In this document: positions 17,012-30,350 of the stretch, one piece after another
Position numbering within the stretch: the stretch's first letter is position 1
Layout of the letters: the number at the start of each line of letters is the position of its first letter
Source of the DNA: Blautia sp.
GTDB taxonomy: Bacteria > Bacillota > Clostridia > Lachnospirales > Lachnospiraceae
Assembly (NCBI GenBank): GCA_026169535.1
Contig: JAPFCU010000043.1
Location: 1 to 64,000, forward strand
DNA: 64,000 nt
Reading direction: 5' to 3'
Notes under the pieces: generated by a model
What the model was told of the DNA's origin: nothing
The model's database searches: none
The model's input: the letters and a program-made list of their open reading frames with translations, nothing else
Position numbers and translations under genes: made by a program

Positions 17012-17068
17012 GACACTTGTCAATGAGAAAAACAAATAAAAAATTTCATAAAAAAGAGGAGACTTATC

Positions 17069-17929
17069 ATGAAGAAAAAAATCGTTGGAATCTTAGCAGC
17101 AGCAGTAATCGGAACAACCGCATTTGCAACAGCAGCAAGTGCAGCAAGCGGAACAATTAATGTTATTTCCCGTGAGGATGGTTCCGGAACAAGAGGCGCT
17201 TTTATTGAACTGTTTGGCATTCAGGAAGAAAAAGACGGAGAAAAGGTTGATATGACAACTGAAGATGCAAGCATCACAAACAGCACATCCGTAATGATGA
17301 CAACAGTAGCTGGTGACGAGAATGCCATTGGTTATATTTCTCTTGGTTCTCTGAACGATACCGTAAAAGCAGTTAAGATTGATGGTGCAGAGGCTACTGC
17401 TGAGAATGTTGCAGATGAAAGCTATAAAGTGTCCCGTCCGTTCAACATTGTAACTGGTGAAAAAGCAAGTGAAGCTGCACAGGATTTTGTAAGCTATATT
17501 ATGAGTGCAGACGGACAGCAGATCATTGAGGATAACGGTTATATCAAAGCAGATGCAGAGGCTGGCGCTTACGAGGCAACAGATGCAGAGGGCAAGGTTG
17601 TTGTTGCAGGTTCTTCTTCTGTATCTCCTGTAATGGAAAAACTGAAAGAGGCTTATGAGGCAGTAAACAAGAACGTAACTGTTGAAGTTCAGCAGAGTGA
17701 TTCTACAACAGGAGTAACATCTGCAGCAGAAGGAATCTGTGATATCGGAATGGCTTCCCGTGAACTGAAAGATGAGGAAAAAGAACTTGGCCTTACAGCT
17801 ACCGTAATCGCACAGGACGGAATTGCAGTGGTTGTAAATACATCTAATGAGACTGAGGATCTTACAAGCGATCAGGTAAAAGCAATCTTTACTGGTGAGA
17901 CAACTGAGTGGGAAGATCTTGCAAAATAA
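17069..17929 (+). CDS. pstS: Phosphate-binding protein PstS, halves in swapped order
   Basis: This encodes 286 residues with a signal peptide (about 1-26, ending AASAAS) that has no lipobox cysteine. It binds phosphate outside the cell for the PstCAB importer. All PstS signature segments are present but in reversed order. The protein begins with NVISREDGSGTRGAF (normally in the second half), runs to SYIMSADGQQIIEDNGYI, and only then, from about residue 177, has VVVAGSSSVSPVMEKL, DIGMASRELK and LTSDQVKAIFTGETTEWEDL (normally the first half). It ends where a normal protein would cross into DGSGT. It therefore looks like a circular permutation with an intact binding site. First gene of the pst operon. 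Confidence 0.9.
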   Translation: MKKKIVGILAAAVIGTTAFATAASAASGTINVISREDGSGTRGAFIELFGIQEEKDGEKVDMTTEDASITNSTSVMMTTVAGDENAIGYISLGSLNDTVKAVKIDGAEATAENVADESYKVSRPFNIVTGEKASEAAQDFVSYIMSADGQQIIEDNGYIKADAEAGAYEATDAEGKVVVAGSSSVSPVMEKLKEAYEAVNKNVTVEVQQSDSTTGVTSAAEGICDIGMASRELKDEEKELGLTATVIAQDGIAVVVNTSNETEDLTSDQVKAIFTGETTEWEDLAK

Positions 17930-17959
17930 GATCAGTACAACATGAAGGAACGCAAAGGG

Positions 17960-17975
17960 GCCCGGCTTACCGGGC
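17960..17975 (+). other. Hairpin between pstS and pstC
   Basis: GCCCGG-CTTA-CCGGGC forms a compact stem in the 88-bp gap, followed only by a weak T-stretch. Such hairpins commonly stabilise the pstS part of the message or let only part of transcription pass, giving more PstS than permease. Confidence 0.55.
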
Positions 17976-18017
17976 TTCTGTTCTGTAATCATGAAGTCAG
18001 AGAGGAAGATATCTTTT

Positions 18018-18905
18018 ATGAGTATAAAAAATACATCTAAGGTTTCTATAGACAGGATCAAAGAGCAGGGAATGAAAACAGTGTTCATGGTGGCAGCCTG
18101 CGTTTCTGTTCTTGCAGTGCTTTTGATCTGTCTGTTTCTTTTTGCCAGTGGAATTCCGGCGATCGGAGAAATCGGTCCAACGAAATTCCTTTTTGGAACA
18201 ACATGGAAACCATCAAATAATCTGTATGGGATTTTTTCCATGATCGTAGCCAGCATTTATGTAACCGGAGGTGCTATTCTGGTAGGTGTTCCAATTGCTC
18301 TCTTTACCTCTGTGTTTATGGCGCGTTACTGCCCGAAAAAAATCTACAGACCGCTGAAATCAGGCATTGAGCTGATGGCAGGAGTTCCCTCTATTGTATA
18401 TGGATTTTTCGGTTTGGTAGTGATGGTTCCGTTTATCCGAAATACATTTGGAGGCACAGGAACCAGCTGGCTTGCAGCCTCTCTGCTTCTTGGAATCATG
18501 ATCCTTCCCACTATCATAGGCCCTACGGAATCTGCACTTAGAAGTGTACCTGAGAGCTATTATGAGGGCTCGCTGGCTCTTGGGGCAACAAAGGAACGCA
18601 GTATTTTCTGCGTGATGCTTCCTGCAGCAAAATCAGGTATTCTTGCAGCAGTTGTTCTTGGCATCGGTCGTGCCATCGGAGAGACTATGGCAGTGATCAT
18701 GGTAGCAGGAAACCAGGCAAGAATGCCTCAGGGAATCCTGAAAGGACTCCGTACGATGACAGCAAATATTGTTACAGAAATGGGATATGCAACAGGCCTT
18801 CACAGAGAAGCTCTGATTGCTACCGGTGTGGTACTGTTTGTATTTATCCTCATTATAAATCTCAGTCTTTCACTTCTGAACAGGAGGGCGGAAAATGCAA
18901 ACTAA
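18018..18905 (+). CDS. pstC: Phosphate ABC transporter permease PstC
   Basis: This encodes 295 residues; the start at 18018 is preceded by GAGGAAG, whereas the ATG at 17991 lacks a ribosome site. Six hydrophobic helices and the permease EAA-like loop (ALGATKERSIFCVMLPAAKSG) are clear, as is the family segment PFIRNTFGGTGTSWLAA. It forms the membrane channel with PstA. Its end overlaps pstA by 11 bp. Confidence 0.95.
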   Translation: MSIKNTSKVSIDRIKEQGMKTVFMVAACVSVLAVLLICLFLFASGIPAIGEIGPTKFLFGTTWKPSNNLYGIFSMIVASIYVTGGAILVGVPIALFTSVFMARYCPKKIYRPLKSGIELMAGVPSIVYGFFGLVVMVPFIRNTFGGTGTSWLAASLLLGIMILPTIIGPTESALRSVPESYYEGSLALGATKERSIFCVMLPAAKSGILAAVVLGIGRAIGETMAVIMVAGNQARMPQGILKGLRTMTANIVTEMGYATGLHREALIATGVVLFVFILIINLSLSLLNRRAENAN

Positions 18906-19797
18906 TGCGGCAGTTGCCAATTCAGAAATTCAGACAAAAAAGAGAAACAGCTCTTCTGCAGGCAGTCAGCTGAAATCTTATCTTCGCCATCCGGGTTCAG
19001 GAATCCTTGCATTGTTAACCGGAGTGGCGGCAGTCCTTACTTTTGCAGTGCTGCTGTTTCTGGTAGGATACATTCTGGTAAAGGGTATTCCTTATCTGAC
19101 TCCATCTCTGTTCAGTCTGGAGTATAATTCAGAGAATGTGTCTCTGATGCCGTCTCTTATCAATACCTTTATTATGACGGTGATGACTCTTCTGATCGCA
19201 GCGCCGATCGGGATTTTTGCAGCAATTTATCTTGTAGAATATGCAAAAAAAGGAAATCGACTGGTGAAGGTTATCCGTATCACCGCAGAGACACTTTCCG
19301 GTATTCCATCTATTGTATTCGGACTTTTCGGTATGCTGTTTTTTGTAACTGCAATGAACTGGGGAATGTCTCTTATGGCAGGTATTTTTACCCTGGTGAT
19401 CATGGTTCTTCCTTTGATCATGCGTACATCTGAGGAAGCCTTAAAGGCAGTTCCGGATTCTTACAGAGAGGCCAGCTTTGGTCTTGGCGCCGGAAAATTA
19501 AGAACTATTTTTACAATCGTGCTTCCTTCAGCAGTACCTGGCATTCTGGCCGGAATCATTCTGGCCATCGGACGTATTATCGGAGAAACAGCTGCACTTC
19601 TTTATACTTCCGGAACAGTAGCCCAGATACCGGATCTGATGGGATCGGGACGTACACTGGCTCTTCATATGTATGTGCTTTCCAGTGAGGGACTGCACAT
19701 GAATCAGGCTTCTGCTACGGCAGTGGTGATCCTTGTTTTTGTACTGATCATCAACTGGCTTTCCGGCAAAGCAGCAAAAAGAATTGCGAAAGGATAA
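18895..19797 (+). CDS. pstA: Phosphate ABC transporter permease PstA
   Basis: This encodes 300 residues with six predicted helices. Family landmarks are AIYLVEYAKKG, the GIPSIVFGLFG segment and the coupling loop ASFGLGAGKLRTIFTIVLPSA, which contacts PstB. Start within pstC (AGGAGGGCGGAAA site). It pairs with PstC to form the channel. The first 35 residues are polar and cytoplasmic. Confidence 0.95.
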   Translation: MQTNAAVANSEIQTKKRNSSSAGSQLKSYLRHPGSGILALLTGVAAVLTFAVLLFLVGYILVKGIPYLTPSLFSLEYNSENVSLMPSLINTFIMTVMTLLIAAPIGIFAAIYLVEYAKKGNRLVKVIRITAETLSGIPSIVFGLFGMLFFVTAMNWGMSLMAGIFTLVIMVLPLIMRTSEEALKAVPDSYREASFGLGAGKLRTIFTIVLPSAVPGILAGIILAIGRIIGETAALLYTSGTVAQIPDLMGSGRTLALHMYVLSSEGLHMNQASATAVVILVFVLIINWLSGKAAKRIAKG

Positions 19798-19803
19798 GGA
19801 TAC

Positions 19804-20562
19804 ATGAGTAATAATACAAAGCTTTTGATTGAAAATATGAACCTTCATTACGGAAATTTTCATGCTCTGAAGGATATTAATATGCACATTCCGGAAAAGG
19901 AGATCACTGCATTTATCGGACCCAGCGGCTGTGGAAAATCCACACTTCTGAAATCCTTAAACAGAATGAATGACCTTGTAGAGGGCTGTGTGATCACTGG
20001 AAAGGTGGAGCTTGACGGACAGGATATTTACGGAGATATGGATGTAAATCTTCTGAGAAAAAGAGTGGGAATGGTTTTTCAGAAACCAAATCCTTTTCCA
20101 ATGAGTATTTATGATAATATTGCATACGGACCAAGAACACATGGTATCCGCTCCAAGGCAAAACTGGATGATATCGTGGAAAAATCTCTTCGTGACGCTG
20201 CTATCTGGGACGAGGTAAAAGACCGTTTGAAAAAAAGTGCTCTTGGAATGTCAGGCGGACAGCAGCAGAGGCTTTGTATTGCAAGGGCGCTGGCAGTGCA
20301 GCCGGAGGTGCTTCTGATGGATGAGCCGACTTCCGCTCTTGATCCCATTTCCACTTCCAAGATCGAGGAGCTGGCAATGGAACTGAAAAAGGACTATACA
20401 ATCGTAATGGTAACCCATAATATGCAGCAGGCAACCCGTATATCAGATAAAACTGCTTTTTTCCTTCTGGGAGAAGTGATAGAATTCAATGATACAGATA
20501 CCTTATTCTCCATGCCGACGGATAAGAGGACAGAGGATTATATTACAGGGAGGTTTGGATGA
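19804..20562 (+). CDS. pstB: Phosphate ABC transporter ATP-binding protein PstB
   Basis: This encodes 252 residues, the standard length. It carries Walker [10 protein letters not shown], signature MSGGQQQR, Walker [12 protein letters not shown] and the PstB-specific NRMNDL segment after Walker A plus the [17 protein letters not shown]-loop region. It powers phosphate import. It begins 6 bp behind pstA and its TGA is followed one base later by the phoU start. Confidence 0.97.
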
Positions 20563-20563
20563 T

Positions 20564-21235
20564 ATGACGACACGTTTTGAAAGACAGCTGGAGGAGCTGC
20601 ATGTACAGATCATTACAATGGGAAGTCTCTGTGAAAAAGTAATTGCTTTTTCTGCAAAGGCCATACAGGGCGTGAATTGTTCCAAAGAGATTTTTGACAC
20701 GGACAGAGAAATCGATGCAAAAGAAAGAGAAATAGAAAATATCTGTATGCGTCTTCTCTTGCATCAGCAGCCGGTAGCAAGGGATTTAAGAGAAATCTCT
20801 GCTGCTCTTAAGATGATCTCGGATATGGAGCGTATTGGCGATCAGGCAGCAGACATTGCGGATCTGGCAAGATTTATTGACAGAAACAGTGTGGAAATAC
20901 CGAAAGAAATTGAAAAAATGGCAGATCAGACAGTTCGTATGGTGACAGAAAGCATTGATTCTTTTGTAAAAGCGGATTTGGATCTGTGCAGAAAAGTTAT
21001 CAATGACGATGATATGGTAGATGAGAGCTTTGAACAGGTCAAGACAGAACTGACAGAGATGATCTACCACAGAAGTATTGATGCAAAAATGGCTCTTGAT
21101 CTTCTTATGACGGCAAAATACATGGAACGTATTGGAGATCATGCAGTAAACATTGCAGAATGGGTAGAGTACTCGATCACTGGAATCCATAGAAATAATG
21201 AACATCAGAATCGGACCGGAGGAATCATAAATTGA
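20564..21235 (+). CDS. phoU: Phosphate transport regulator PhoU
   Basis: This encodes 223 residues from the ATG at 20564 (GGGAGG upstream, 1 bp after the pstB stop); a longer in-frame start lies inside pstB and is unlikely. The protein is all-helical with the two PhoU repeats, each containing an E/D-x-x-x-D metal-binding patch (ISDMERIGDQAADIADLA and MERIGDHAVNIAEW). It mediates signalling between PstB and the sensor kinase PhoR so that the Pho response is off when phosphate is plentiful. The stop overlaps the phoR start. Confidence 0.95.
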   Translation: MTTRFERQLEELHVQIITMGSLCEKVIAFSAKAIQGVNCSKEIFDTDREIDAKEREIENICMRLLLHQQPVARDLREISAALKMISDMERIGDQAADIADLARFIDRNSVEIPKEIEKMADQTVRMVTESIDSFVKADLDLCRKVINDDDMVDESFEQVKTELTEMIYHRSIDAKMALDLLMTAKYMERIGDHAVNIAEWVEYSITGIHRNNEHQNRTGGIIN

Positions 21236-22902
21236 CAAAAAAGATTTTTAAATCTACGGTGCTTGTATCTGCTTCTGTGCTGATTCTGGGGATTGCTTTT
21301 GTTCTGGGAATTCTGTACCAGTATTTTGGAAAACAGCTGGATACGGAACTTGCCAGAGAGGCCAGCTATCTTGCCTATGGAGTAGAGCAGCAGGGTGAAG
21401 AATATCTGCAGCAGCTGAAAGATACAGATTCAAGAATTACCTATATTGGAGAAGACGGAACGGTAATTTATGATAATGAGGCTGATGCAGCTGAAATGGA
21501 AAATCATAAGGATCGTGAGGAATTTCAGGAGGCGCTTGCTACAGGAGCAGGAGAGGCGCAGCGTATGTCCAGTACTTTGTCTGAAAAAACCGTTTATTAT
21601 GCAAAAAGACTTTCGGATAATTCTGTACTTAGAGTATCCAGTACACAATATTCAGCTTTTGCCCTGGTGCTTCAGCTGATACAGCCGGTACTGTGCATTA
21701 TATTTGTGATGCTGATCCTTGCAGGAGTTTTTGCTTCTAAGATAGCGGGAAAAATTGTAGAGCCGATTAATGAGCTTGATCTGGAAAAACCGGATGAAAA
21801 TGAGATTTACGAAGAGGTGGCTCCTCTTCTTGGAAAGATCAACCGTCAGAATCGTCAGATCCGTACACAGCTTGAAGAGGCAAGAAGAAATCAGGAGGAA
21901 TTCTCTATTATTACAGAAAATATGCAGGAAGGACTTCTGGTCATTGATTCCTATACAATGATCCTGTCCGGAAATTCCAGTGCCTGGAAGATTTTTCAGG
22001 TGGATAAGCCAGGAACGGGACGCAGCGTATATTCCCTGGACAGAAATGAAGATTTCCGAAAAGTAATCGAAACTGTGCTGGAGGGAAAACATGGAAGTGC
22101 CCTTCTTCATCTGGATAATGAGTTTGTACAGCTGATTGCCAATCCGGTAAACAGAGATGGAAAGACAGTTGGTGCAGTTCTTCTTCTGATGAATGAAACA
22201 GAGAAAGTGCAGAGAGAAAACCTCAGAAGAGAATTTTCTGCAAATGTTTCCCACGAACTGAAGACTCCTCTGACTTCCATTTCCGGCTTTGCAGAGATTA
22301 TTCAGGATGGTTTTGTAAAAGAAGAAGATGTTAAGAAATTCGCCGGAAGAATTTATAAGGAAGCCCAGAGGCTGATCCAGCTTGTAGAGGATACTATTCG
22401 GATCTCCCAGCTGGATGAAGGAGAGAATCCGTATGAATGGGAGAATATTGATCTTTATACAGTGGCGAAGGACGTATGCGGAAACCTGAATGAAGCTGCA
22501 AAGAAAAAGAATGTTCATCTGTATATCGAGGGAGAACGGCTGATCTGCCGTACAGTTCGTCCTATCCTGGAAGAAATTCTTTATAACCTTTGCGATAATG
22601 GTATCAAATACAATAAGGATAATGGCATAGTCAGTATTCTTATCAAGGATCTTGGCAATGAAGTCCAGTTGTCTGTGGAGGACAATGGTATTGGAATCCC
22701 ACGGGAAGACCGGAAGAGAGTTTTTGAACGTTTTTACAGAGTGGATAAAAGCCATTCAAAGGAGATTGGAGGAACCGGACTTGGTCTTTCCATTGTAAAA
22801 CATGGAGTTACTTTCCTTGGAGGAACACTGAATCTTGTCAGTGAAGTGGATAAAGGAACTGAAATTACGGTGACTTTGCCGAAAAACAAAAGTGAGAAAT
22901 AG
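21232..22902 (+). CDS. phoR: Phosphate-type sensor histidine kinase PhoR
   Basis: This encodes 556 residues starting at TTG in a TTGA overlap with phoU, with GGAGG at 21218. Layout: transmembrane helix 1 (about 8-31), an extracytoplasmic domain, transmembrane helix 2 (about 141-165), a PAS-like domain (about 225-315), HisKA with the phosphorylated His in VSHELKTPLTS (about 340), and an HATPase domain with DNGIKY, DNGIGI and GGTGLGLSIV. It is placed as the last gene of the pst operon, so it is the likely phosphate sensor kinase. The matching response regulator is not encoded next to it in this window. Confidence 0.9.
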   Translation: MTKKIFKSTVLVSASVLILGIAFVLGILYQYFGKQLDTELAREASYLAYGVEQQGEEYLQQLKDTDSRITYIGEDGTVIYDNEADAAEMENHKDREEFQEALATGAGEAQRMSSTLSEKTVYYAKRLSDNSVLRVSSTQYSAFALVLQLIQPVLCIIFVMLILAGVFASKIAGKIVEPINELDLEKPDENEIYEEVAPLLGKINRQNRQIRTQLEEARRNQEEFSIITENMQEGLLVIDSYTMILSGNSSAWKIFQVDKPGTGRSVYSLDRNEDFRKVIETVLEGKHGSALLHLDNEFVQLIANPVNRDGKTVGAVLLLMNETEKVQRENLRREFSANVSHELKTPLTSISGFAEIIQDGFVKEEDVKKFAGRIYKEAQRLIQLVEDTIRISQLDEGENPYEWENIDLYTVAKDVCGNLNEAAKKKNVHLYIEGERLICRTVRPILEEILYNLCDNGIKYNKDNGIVSILIKDLGNEVQLSVEDNGIGIPREDRKRVFERFYRVDKSHSKEIGGTGLGLSIVKHGVTFLGGTLNLVSEVDKGTEITVTLPKNKSEK

Positions 22903-27898: not shown

Positions 27899-28930
27899 AT
27901 GAGGATTGTTGTATTAGCAGGCGGAACAAGCACAGAAAGAGATGTTTCTATTGTTTCTGGAGCAGGAATATGCAATGGATTGAGGGCAAAGGGGCACAAC
28001 GCTGTGCTGATCGATGTTTTTTGCGGAATAAACCAAGTAAACTGGGAAGATCCTTTTCCTGAGGAGTATGATGTAGAGGCTGCTGTAGACTACATCAGAA
28101 GCTTTAATAAAGATATTGAGACGCTGAAAAAAGAAAGAAGAGAATTCTTTGGTCCGAACGTGCTGGAATTGTGCAAAAAAGCAGAGTTTGTATTTTTGGG
28201 GCTTCATGGAGCCAATGGAGAAGACGGAAGAGTGCAGGCAGCCTTTGATCTTCTGGGAATCAAATACACCGGCACCGGATATCTCAGCAGTGCCATGGCA
28301 ATGGATAAAGGCGTGACCAAATGGATGTTCCAGATGTATGATGTTCCGGTTCCGGGCGGTACGACCATGAAAAGACAGGAACGGAAGGACCAGCTTGAAG
28401 AGGGGCTTTCATTTCCGGTAGTGGTAAAAACCTGCTGCGGAGGTTCCAGCATCGGTGTTTATATTGTGCATGACCAGAAAGAATATACCAGAGCTCTTGA
28501 TGCGGCTTTTTCTTATGAAGAGGAAGTGGTCATTGAAGAATATATCCAGGGCACGGAATACACAGTTGCAGTTGTAGACGGCAAAGCATATCCTGTAGTC
28601 CAGATTGTTCCCTGTGAAGGATTTTATGATTATGAAAACAAATATAAACCAGGTGCGGTAAAGGAAACCTGTCCGGCTCCTATTTCTGAAGAGCTGACCA
28701 GACGTCTGCAGGAGAATGCAGTCAAAGGATATCGTGCTCTTGGGCTGGAAAGCTATGCAAGACTTGATTTTATTGTAACGGAAGATGAAAAGATCTACTG
28801 TCTGGAAGCAAATACTCTTCCGGGAATGACGCCTACAAGCCTGATCCCTCAGGAAGCGGCTGTTCTTGGAATGGATTACCCTACACTTTGTGAGGAGCTG
28901 ATCCGGGTATCTGAGAAAAAATATCAGTAG
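27899..28930 (+). CDS. ddl: D-alanine--D-alanine ligase
   Basis: This encodes 343 residues of the ATP-grasp family. It joins two D-alanines for the peptidoglycan stem peptide. Landmarks are VLAGGTSTERDVSIVSG at the N-terminus, LHGANGEDGRVQAAFDLLGI, the ATP-grasp segment PVVVKTCCGGSSIGV, and the metal-binding end EANTLPGMTPTSLIPQEA. The start ATG has GAGGGAG upstream. It is followed 46 bp later by murF, whose enzyme uses the dipeptide product directly. Confidence 0.96.
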   Translation: MRIVVLAGGTSTERDVSIVSGAGICNGLRAKGHNAVLIDVFCGINQVNWEDPFPEEYDVEAAVDYIRSFNKDIETLKKERREFFGPNVLELCKKAEFVFLGLHGANGEDGRVQAAFDLLGIKYTGTGYLSSAMAMDKGVTKWMFQMYDVPVPGGTTMKRQERKDQLEEGLSFPVVVKTCCGGSSIGVYIVHDQKEYTRALDAAFSYEEEVVIEEYIQGTEYTVAVVDGKAYPVVQIVPCEGFYDYENKYKPGAVKETCPAPISEELTRRLQENAVKGYRALGLESYARLDFIVTEDEKIYCLEANTLPGMTPTSLIPQEAAVLGMDYPTLCEELIRVSEKKYQ

Positions 28931-28976
28931 GGATTCCCGGAATACGCAGAGAATCTTTGGGAAAGCAGGAAAACGC

Positions 28977-30350
28977 ATGATGAAAAATCTTACATTAAGA
29001 AATATAACAAAGGTATGCTGTGGAATCTATCATGGTCCGGAGGAATTTCTGGATCAGGAGGTGACTTCCATTACCACAGACAGCCGTAAGGCAGAGAGTG
29101 GCGGACTGTTTGTTCCTATTGTGGGAGAACGTGTGGACGCTCATAAATTTATTCCGGATGTTATGGAGAAAGGCTGTCTGGCTGCTCTTTCAGAACGAGT
29201 GCTTGCGGATGCGGAATATCCTTATATTCAAGTCAATTCTTCTTTGCAGGCGGTAAAAGATATTGCGGAATTTTATCTGGAACAGCTTCATATTCCTGTT
29301 GTGGGAATTACAGGAAGTGTTGGAAAAACAAGTACAAAAGAGGTAATTGCCTCTGTACTGAAAGAAAAATACCGTACTTTGAAAACACAGGGCAACTTTA
29401 ACAATGAACTGGGACTTCCTCTTACAGTATTCCGTCTTCGGGATGAGGATGAGATTGCAGTTCTTGAAATGGGAATCAGTGATTTCGGTGAGATGACCAG
29501 ACTGGCTAAAATCGCAAAACCGGAGACCTGTGTGATCACTAATATAGGAACCTGCCATCTGGAAAACCTGGGAGACAGAGATGGAGTGCTTAAGGCGAAA
29601 ACAGAGATTTTTGATTCTCTGAGAGAGGGCGGAAATATCGTCCTGAACGGGGATGATGACAAGTTGTCCACGGCAAAAGGATATAAAGGGATCCGTCCGG
29701 TGTTTTTTGGTCTGGAGGCGGACTGTGACGTATATGCAGATGAGATCGAGAGCAAAGGTCTGAAAGGCGTTTCCTGCAGGATCCATCTGGGAGAAGAAAG
29801 TTTTTCTGTTCTGGTTCCTATGCCGGGGATACATATGGTATATAATGCCCTTGCAGCTTCTGCAGTGGGACGGATCTACAATCTTACTGTGGAAGAGATT
29901 AAACGAGGGATAGAAAGCCTGGAAGCCATCAGCGGACGTTTTAAGATGATTGAGACAGATAAGCTTCTGATCGTGGATGACTGCTATAATGCCAACCCTA
30001 TGTCCATGAAAGCTTCTCTGGACGTGCTTCACGACGGAGCCGGACGCAGAGTGGCGATCCTGGGAGATATGGGAGAGCTTGGTGAGAACGAGATCCGCCT
30101 TCATGAAGAGGTGGGGGCACATGCAGCTTCCTGTGGAATTGACTGCTGTATCTGTGTGGGAGAGCTTTCTTATCATATGGCAGAAGCTGCCCGCAAGGCA
30201 GATCCGGGATTTTCTGTGATTTATGTGAAAAACCGTGAACAGCTTCTGGAACACTTGAAGGAATATGTTCAGAAAGGTGATACAGTTCTTGTAAAAGCCT
30301 CTCATTTCATGAAATTTGAAGAGGTAGTAAAGGCTCTTGAGGAATGGTAG
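28977..30350 (+). CDS. murF: UDP-N-acetylmuramoyl-tripeptide--D-alanyl-D-alanine ligase MurF
   Basis: This encodes 457 residues, usual length for MurF. It adds D-Ala-D-Ala to the UDP-MurNAc tripeptide in the cytoplasm. Visible are the N-terminal substrate domain with TTDSRKAESGGLFVPIVGER, the ATP-binding GITGSVGKTSTKE (about 110-122), the LEMGISDFGEM segment and the ligase C-terminal domain with DDCYNANPMSMKASLDVL. It forms an operon-like pair with ddl. Two adjacent ATG codons at the start make the first residue uncertain by one. Confidence 0.97.
   Translation: MMKNLTLRNITKVCCGIYHGPEEFLDQEVTSITTDSRKAESGGLFVPIVGERVDAHKFIPDVMEKGCLAALSERVLADAEYPYIQVNSSLQAVKDIAEFYLEQLHIPVVGITGSVGKTSTKEVIASVLKEKYRTLKTQGNFNNELGLPLTVFRLRDEDEIAVLEMGISDFGEMTRLAKIAKPETCVITNIGTCHLENLGDRDGVLKAKTEIFDSLREGGNIVLNGDDDKLSTAKGYKGIRPVFFGLEADCDVYADEIESKGLKGVSCRIHLGEESFSVLVPMPGIHMVYNALAASAVGRIYNLTVEEIKRGIESLEAISGRFKMIETDKLLIVDDCYNANPMSMKASLDVLHDGAGRRVAILGDMGELGENEIRLHEEVGAHAASCGIDCCICVGELSYHMAEAARKADPGFSVIYVKNREQLLEHLKEYVQKGDTVLVKASHFMKFEEVVKALEEW

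Follow-up and report, generated by a model that had tools for sequence, protein, structure and literature searches.

A pstS gene with its two halves in swapped order at the head of a pst operon in Blautia

The stretch of DNA analysed here (the window) is 64,000 nucleotides long and comes from Blautia sp., a member of the Lachnospiraceae (assembly GCA_026169535.1, contig JAPFCU010000043.1, positions 1 to 64,000 of the forward strand). It contains a gene for the phosphate-binding protein PstS in which the two halves of the protein are encoded in swapped order. The gene and its parts are as follows.

17054..17061 (+): ribosome-binding-site-like AAGAGGAG, with the ATG 7 bases downstream; read in the sequence
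17069..17929 (+): permuted pstS gene (P0001), 286 amino acids, ATG start; from the open reading frame listing and its translation
17069..17143 (+): signal peptide, residues 1-25, with an AxA (ASA/AS) signal-peptidase-I-like end and without a lipobox cysteine; read from the sequence, no predictor
17150..17548 (+): canonical second half of PstS, residues 28-160 (SREDGSGTR ... QQIIEDNGYI), placed first; from alignments
17549..17587 (+): linker, about residues 161-173, between the former C- and N-termini; the gap between the two aligned blocks
17588..17926 (+): canonical first half of PstS, residues 174-286 (VVVAGSSSV ... TTEWEDLAK), placed last; from alignments

The halves of PstS are swapped in the window protein. 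An earlier note, made from the letters of this DNA alone, had claimed that the second half directly follows the signal peptide and that the first half comes after it; alignments bear this out. In a phmmer search against solved structures, residues 119-244 of Clostridium perfringens PstS (4q8r) match residues 29-160 of the query (independent E-value 2.6e-26) and residues 5-113 match residues 176-284 (2.5e-25), which gives two blocks in reversed order. 4gd5 also aligns as two order-reversed blocks. When five standard-order PstS proteins from other genomes are compared by blastp, each yields crossed blocks of 91.7-124 bits (ten main blocks in all), with one extra 19-bit chance match (E 0.48). The top score from 500 shuffled window proteins is 28.9 bits; the crossed pattern is therefore far beyond chance, and it is not collinear with normal PstS. 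There is no sign of a truncated tandem copy. No second or standard pstS was found in the assembly (89.75% complete, 85 contigs), where only the window gene exceeds the PF12849 cut-off; two weak PF12849 matches elsewhere are sub-threshold.

Profile matches are divided in the same manner. The window protein scores 122.7 bits against PF12849 (PBP_like_2; cut-off 27) in two stretches, the second-half block corresponding to profile positions 127-266 and the first-half block to positions 5-127. Its TIGR02136 score, also in two stretches, is 183 bits; this is below the whole-protein cut-off of 206.6, so that it does not count as a member of TIGR02136.

The cut site can be located by comparison with standard PstS. 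A pattern that permitted a gap of 2-12 residues found both boundary motifs in 45 of 51 standard-order rows; in these, 6-7 residues separate W..L, at the end of the first half, from the start of the second half. The start and end of the permuted chain both fall in this loop. The old ends are bridged: the gap from GYI to GSSSV has a median of 20 residues (19-90) in the 128 of 145 permuted rows that have both motifs.

Ordinary PstS proteins (4q8r and 4gd5 from C. perfringens, 1twy from V. cholerae, and 4exl and 4lat, PstS1 of Streptococcus pneumoniae) are homologous to the window protein in both halves and have the same contact motifs, but the halves are in the opposite order. The chain ends differ accordingly. 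By the lobe limits given for CpPstS, both ends of ordinary PstS are in lobe 1 (PMC12421899; this and the other papers cited here are used in the parts of their text available), whereas in the predicted structure of the window protein both ends are in lobe 2 and the uninterrupted middle of the chain makes up lobe 1. In the model, the chain seems to cross between the lobes at strand 122-129 and at the long strand 243-257, which may form the hinge. Structure prediction, which the earlier note had proposed as a check, supports circular permutation. The same note had stated that all phosphate-binding segments are kept, and this is also the case: the contact columns R35, S39, G40, T41, S182, S184, S212 and G215 are invariant across 126 permuted rows, and the same residue is found at these eight columns in 47-52 of 52 standard-order rows. 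R35 of the window protein is equivalent to Arg125 of 4Q8R. A circular permutation with retention of the contact segments is supported by the sequence, the predicted structure, conservation and operon context.

The architecture is also found in a solved structure. 4H1X (S. pneumoniae SP_2084, chain named 'pstS 2') has the same fold and chain order as the window protein and is collinear with it (23-283 to 4-263, E 7.7e-68, phmmer). It comes from another species, and the streptococcal relatives L071 and L075 have a lipobox, unlike the window protein. The earlier note knew of no description of the variant. Indeed, no text describing the permutation of PstS or 4H1X was found in the open-licence literature (closed papers and preprints are outside this scope); however, 4H1X has been public since 2012, and permuted PstS is widespread. 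The permuted PstS is real, not unique and already in the PDB, but apparently not described.

Permuted binding proteins of ABC (ATP-binding cassette) importers are known in at least one other case. TpMglB-2 (Tp0684) is a circularly permuted glucose-binding lipoprotein, proposed as 'Type Ic / Cluster Bc', in which the ligand is still bound; its homologues are found mostly in Gram-positives and treponemes (PMC4990184). It differs from the window protein in having a type I sugar-binding fold with permuted N-lobe strands and another cut, and it is absent from the 24 PDB sequence matches of the window protein and from the 50 listed fold-comparison entries, though this does not prove that there is no likeness. 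OpuAC of B. subtilis (2b4m and others) has 12% identity to the window protein and a different ligand; its weak Z score may merely reflect the likeness of the two lobes. The title of PDB entry 9l8j (Sll0540, Synechocystis) says that the structure 'reveals an evolutionary hotspot'.

The draft genome consists of 85 contigs, and a swapped order of this kind could in principle be an artefact of assembly or annotation. This is extremely improbable, as the same order is present in independent genomes, in complete plasmid records and in a crystal structure. It recurs in strains not labelled as metagenome-assembled genomes (Blautia sp. XA-2221, 91%; B. glucerasea, 79%; Blautia sp. MSJ-19, 82%), and further named records with the permuted gene include some from Streptococcus, Phascolarctobacterium (binned) and Anaerotignum. 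Complete plasmid records of Treponema saccharophilum and Monoglobus pectinilyticus carry a permuted pstS with pstC, pstA, pstB and phoU downstream of it; both of these plasmid-borne proteins are annotated as 'substrate-binding domain-containing protein'. Since the records are independent, the swapped order is not an assembly error and an artefact is refuted.

The permuted form is common among relatives. The earlier note had suggested a search for the same order in the family, and 32 of 100 same-family genomes have a single-block permuted match. In total, 66 of these genomes (own included) match the window protein as query. By a hand tally from the table, a permuted match in a single block (E at most 4.8e-37) occurs once or more in 32 of the 66; another 31 have only crossed half matches, that is, the standard order, and three have a single half only (G045, at a contig start, G069 and G078). 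With a divergent permuted query (306 amino acids) and a limit of E 1e-40, 114 of the 397 genomes of the family match, its own among them; in the matches listed, the query is covered from position 55 or earlier to 301 or later, except in G667 (7-240). Across the phylum, a permuted match is found in at least 14 of 398 genomes (own included), in addition to two tandem fusions; as no more than six candidates were scored per genome, the true number may be higher. The family of one Streptococcus genome, picked because it has the permuted gene, includes 9 carriers among 79 genomes, itself included. Both PstS orders occur within one family and, in G071, G087 and G093, within a single genome. The locus set used for comparison is the best 80 of at least 516 confirmed and is biased to close relatives. 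Permuted PstS with 52-71% identity is also present in five short, unannotated human-faecal contigs labelled 'Bacteriophage sp.' (MT837962.1, MT837530.1, MT838145.1, MT838544.1 and MT837061.1), which could be host DNA or phage-borne.

Downstream of the permuted gene, the window contains the remainder of a pst operon.

17947..17984 (+): stem-loop between pstS and pstC; from folding of 17927-17990
18018..18905 (+): pstC, TIGR02138, over cut-off; start picked by eye (the open reading frame listing starts at 17991)
18895..19797 (+): pstA, TIGR00974, over cut-off
19804..20562 (+): pstB, TIGR00972, over cut-off
20564..21235 (+): phoU, TIGR02135, over cut-off; start picked by eye (the listing starts at 20489)
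21232..22902 (+): PnpS/PhoR-like sensor histidine kinase; best NCBIfam match NF046044 PnpS, 307.3 bits, below the cut-off of 400

The region 17927-17990 folds at -21.4 kcal/mol (z -3.23 against 200 shuffles, of which one was equally stable). The stem-loop is possibly a partial terminator or a 3' mRNA stabiliser, and it may allow more binding protein than permease to be made.

The window gene very probably encodes the phosphate-binding subunit of the Pst ABC importer of this operon, in a naturally circularly permuted form. The chain begins and ends in lobe 2, with the cut in the short loop ahead of SRExGSGTR; the old ends are joined by a linker, so that lobe 1 becomes one continuous insert inside lobe 2. 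As neither the clamshell fold nor the residues that contact phosphate are altered, the protein should bind phosphate in the cleft and pass it to PstC-PstA like any PstS. What the permutation changes is which lobe bears the N-terminal signal or anchor, and the moved anchor may have an effect. Pneumococcus offers an analogy. S. pneumoniae has two PstS proteins (PMC12421899); 4exl/4lat are in standard order and 4h1x is permuted. Both pneumococcal Pst systems serve phosphate uptake (PMC4913102), although no assignment of SP_2084 to Pst1 or Pst2 was found in the available text of that paper. As both systems are active and one PstS is permuted, a permuted PstS very likely works in the living cell.

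A switch of the permuted protein from phosphate import to a different ligand, or to sensing (for instance together with PhoU and the kinase), is very unlikely. The permuted fold is used outside ABC importers, at L160, L162, L163 and other loci that adjoin Na/Pi (sodium/phosphate) cotransporters and not pstC, and the window protein has no lipobox; however, the window gene heads pstCAB-phoU, it encodes the only PstS found in the assembly, and the phosphate-contact motifs are invariant. As far as the evidence goes, the window protein has an ordinary function; what is unusual is its architecture.

In 12 of 33 tested loci (9 distinct; L222/L162, L225/L163 and L232/L160 are the same genes) a divergent permuted PstS-like gene has, 2-119 bases downstream and in place of pstC, a gene for a Na/Pi cotransporter of the NptA type that includes a PhoU domain.

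L162:5424-8058 (+): PstS-like gene and NptA-type cotransporter
L160:4914-7647 (-): PstS-like gene and NptA-type cotransporter
L163:3224-6011 (-): PstS-like gene and NptA-type cotransporter
L222-L228, L230 and L232: further loci of this type

In L236 and L238 the NptA-type cotransporter is upstream of the PstS-like gene. The pairing is possibly a binding-protein-assisted secondary phosphate transporter.

Trees were built without a fixed list of 18 loci (most fetched twice), one identical row, L160 (which has no splitting motif), early-ending frames (the stop-bearing L165 copy) and single-half rows. All 126 permuted proteins of the full set are in one clade both in the tree of concatenated halves (support 0.548) and in the second-half tree (0.899). 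In the first-half tree 125 of the 126 are together; L170 groups with four divergent standard sequences. PstC gives a clearer picture: the 113 PstC proteins recoverable from permuted operons all fall in one clade (0.993), outside of which are 22 standard and 2 tandem PstC proteins. This clade adjoins the PstC of the standard operon in G087 (0.9). These trees fit one permutation and subsequent spread of the whole operon between lineages; the permutation most likely arose once and then travelled with its own pstCAB.

The earlier note had proposed that duplication and loss of the outer halves produced the swap. Such a route would involve an in-frame tandem duplication of pstS followed by loss of the outer halves, and a natural fusion with the first-second-first-second order that this route needs as an intermediate does exist.

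L172:6632-8224 (-): tandem-fused PstS-PstS, first-second-first-second half order
L173:6850-8481 (-): tandem-fused PstS-PstS, first-second-first-second half order

The fusion (531-544 amino acids, in frame, with a lipobox) is located ahead of pstCAB-phoU in G410 and G453, which belong to one genus; none was among the matches found in a third genome of the same order, from another genus. The central part of the fusion and permuted 4h1x align end to end; the two repeats each match standard PstS. The permuted register is thus present between the repeats, but all four halves are kept. Compared half by half, repeats at the same position share 73-82% identity between the two species, and the two repeats of a single protein share 72-77%, so the fusion is probably older than the split of the two species. 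A 605-amino-acid frame in G531, considered as a second fusion, consists of ordinary separate genes.

One result counts against the duplication route: the fusion is closest to standard-order PstS and does not branch as sister to the permuted clade. Identity and trees rule it out as the direct ancestor. The proposal is consistent with the data and has a natural example, but its lineage is not that of the permuted clade; duplication and loss is possible and likely as a route. Alternatively, the swap may stem from a gene that split and fused again, or from recombination of neighbouring separate genes, with no in-frame tandem duplication. The lack of a sister fusion in the trees would agree with this, and neighbouring permuted copies exist (L068, L106/L169). 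In addition, contig C42 of G379 has a second standard-order PstS copy (28810-29534, -) with its halves in two frames (183 and 132 amino acids) 17 bases apart; this is a split or broken gene. However, a stable in-frame tandem fusion is known elsewhere (G410, G453) and lone halves are scarce (3 of 66 matching genomes have a single half only), and the alternative is considered unlikely. Duplication followed by loss is preferred.

A lipobox cysteine for membrane anchoring is usual in monoderm bacteria. By pattern, it is present in 117 of 145 permuted rows (duplicate rows included). It is missing from the whole of one clade of 24 rows (support 0.961), to which the window protein and all loci with a Blautia name belong, and from a separate pair (0.981).

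Window 17069-17143: PstS without lipobox (by pattern)
L001-L024: the same, Blautia clade
L033 and L041: the same, separate pair

The other two misses are L162, which ends in LPGC (a pattern miss, by eye), and the L165 copy with an internal stop. The genome has Lgt and Lsp matches over their cut-offs, and its lipoproteins are thus presumably made. In the window protein the AxA end leaves about five residues ahead of the first strand (sequence and model). An anchor-less PstS may be either released or held through an uncleaved signal peptide.

A broader scenario is doubtful and is put forward tentatively: a whole undescribed branch of PstS, derived from one permutation via a fused tandem PstS, with lobe 2 tethered, the operon spread between phyla, the anchor lost in Blautia and a second recruitment to a Na/Pi cotransporter.

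The permuted PstS is a further natural case of circular permutation in the binding protein of an ABC importer, with a fold and function unlike those of the described sugar-binding case. Abundant sequences, standard-order relatives from the same family, a crystal structure and, as a model intermediate, a natural tandem fusion are all at hand; the set allows tests of how permutations originate and of whether a tether on the other lobe matters. As the NCBIfam PstS score is below its cut-off and two annotated relatives have generic names, surveys of phosphate uptake which rely on such models may undercount gut bacteria.
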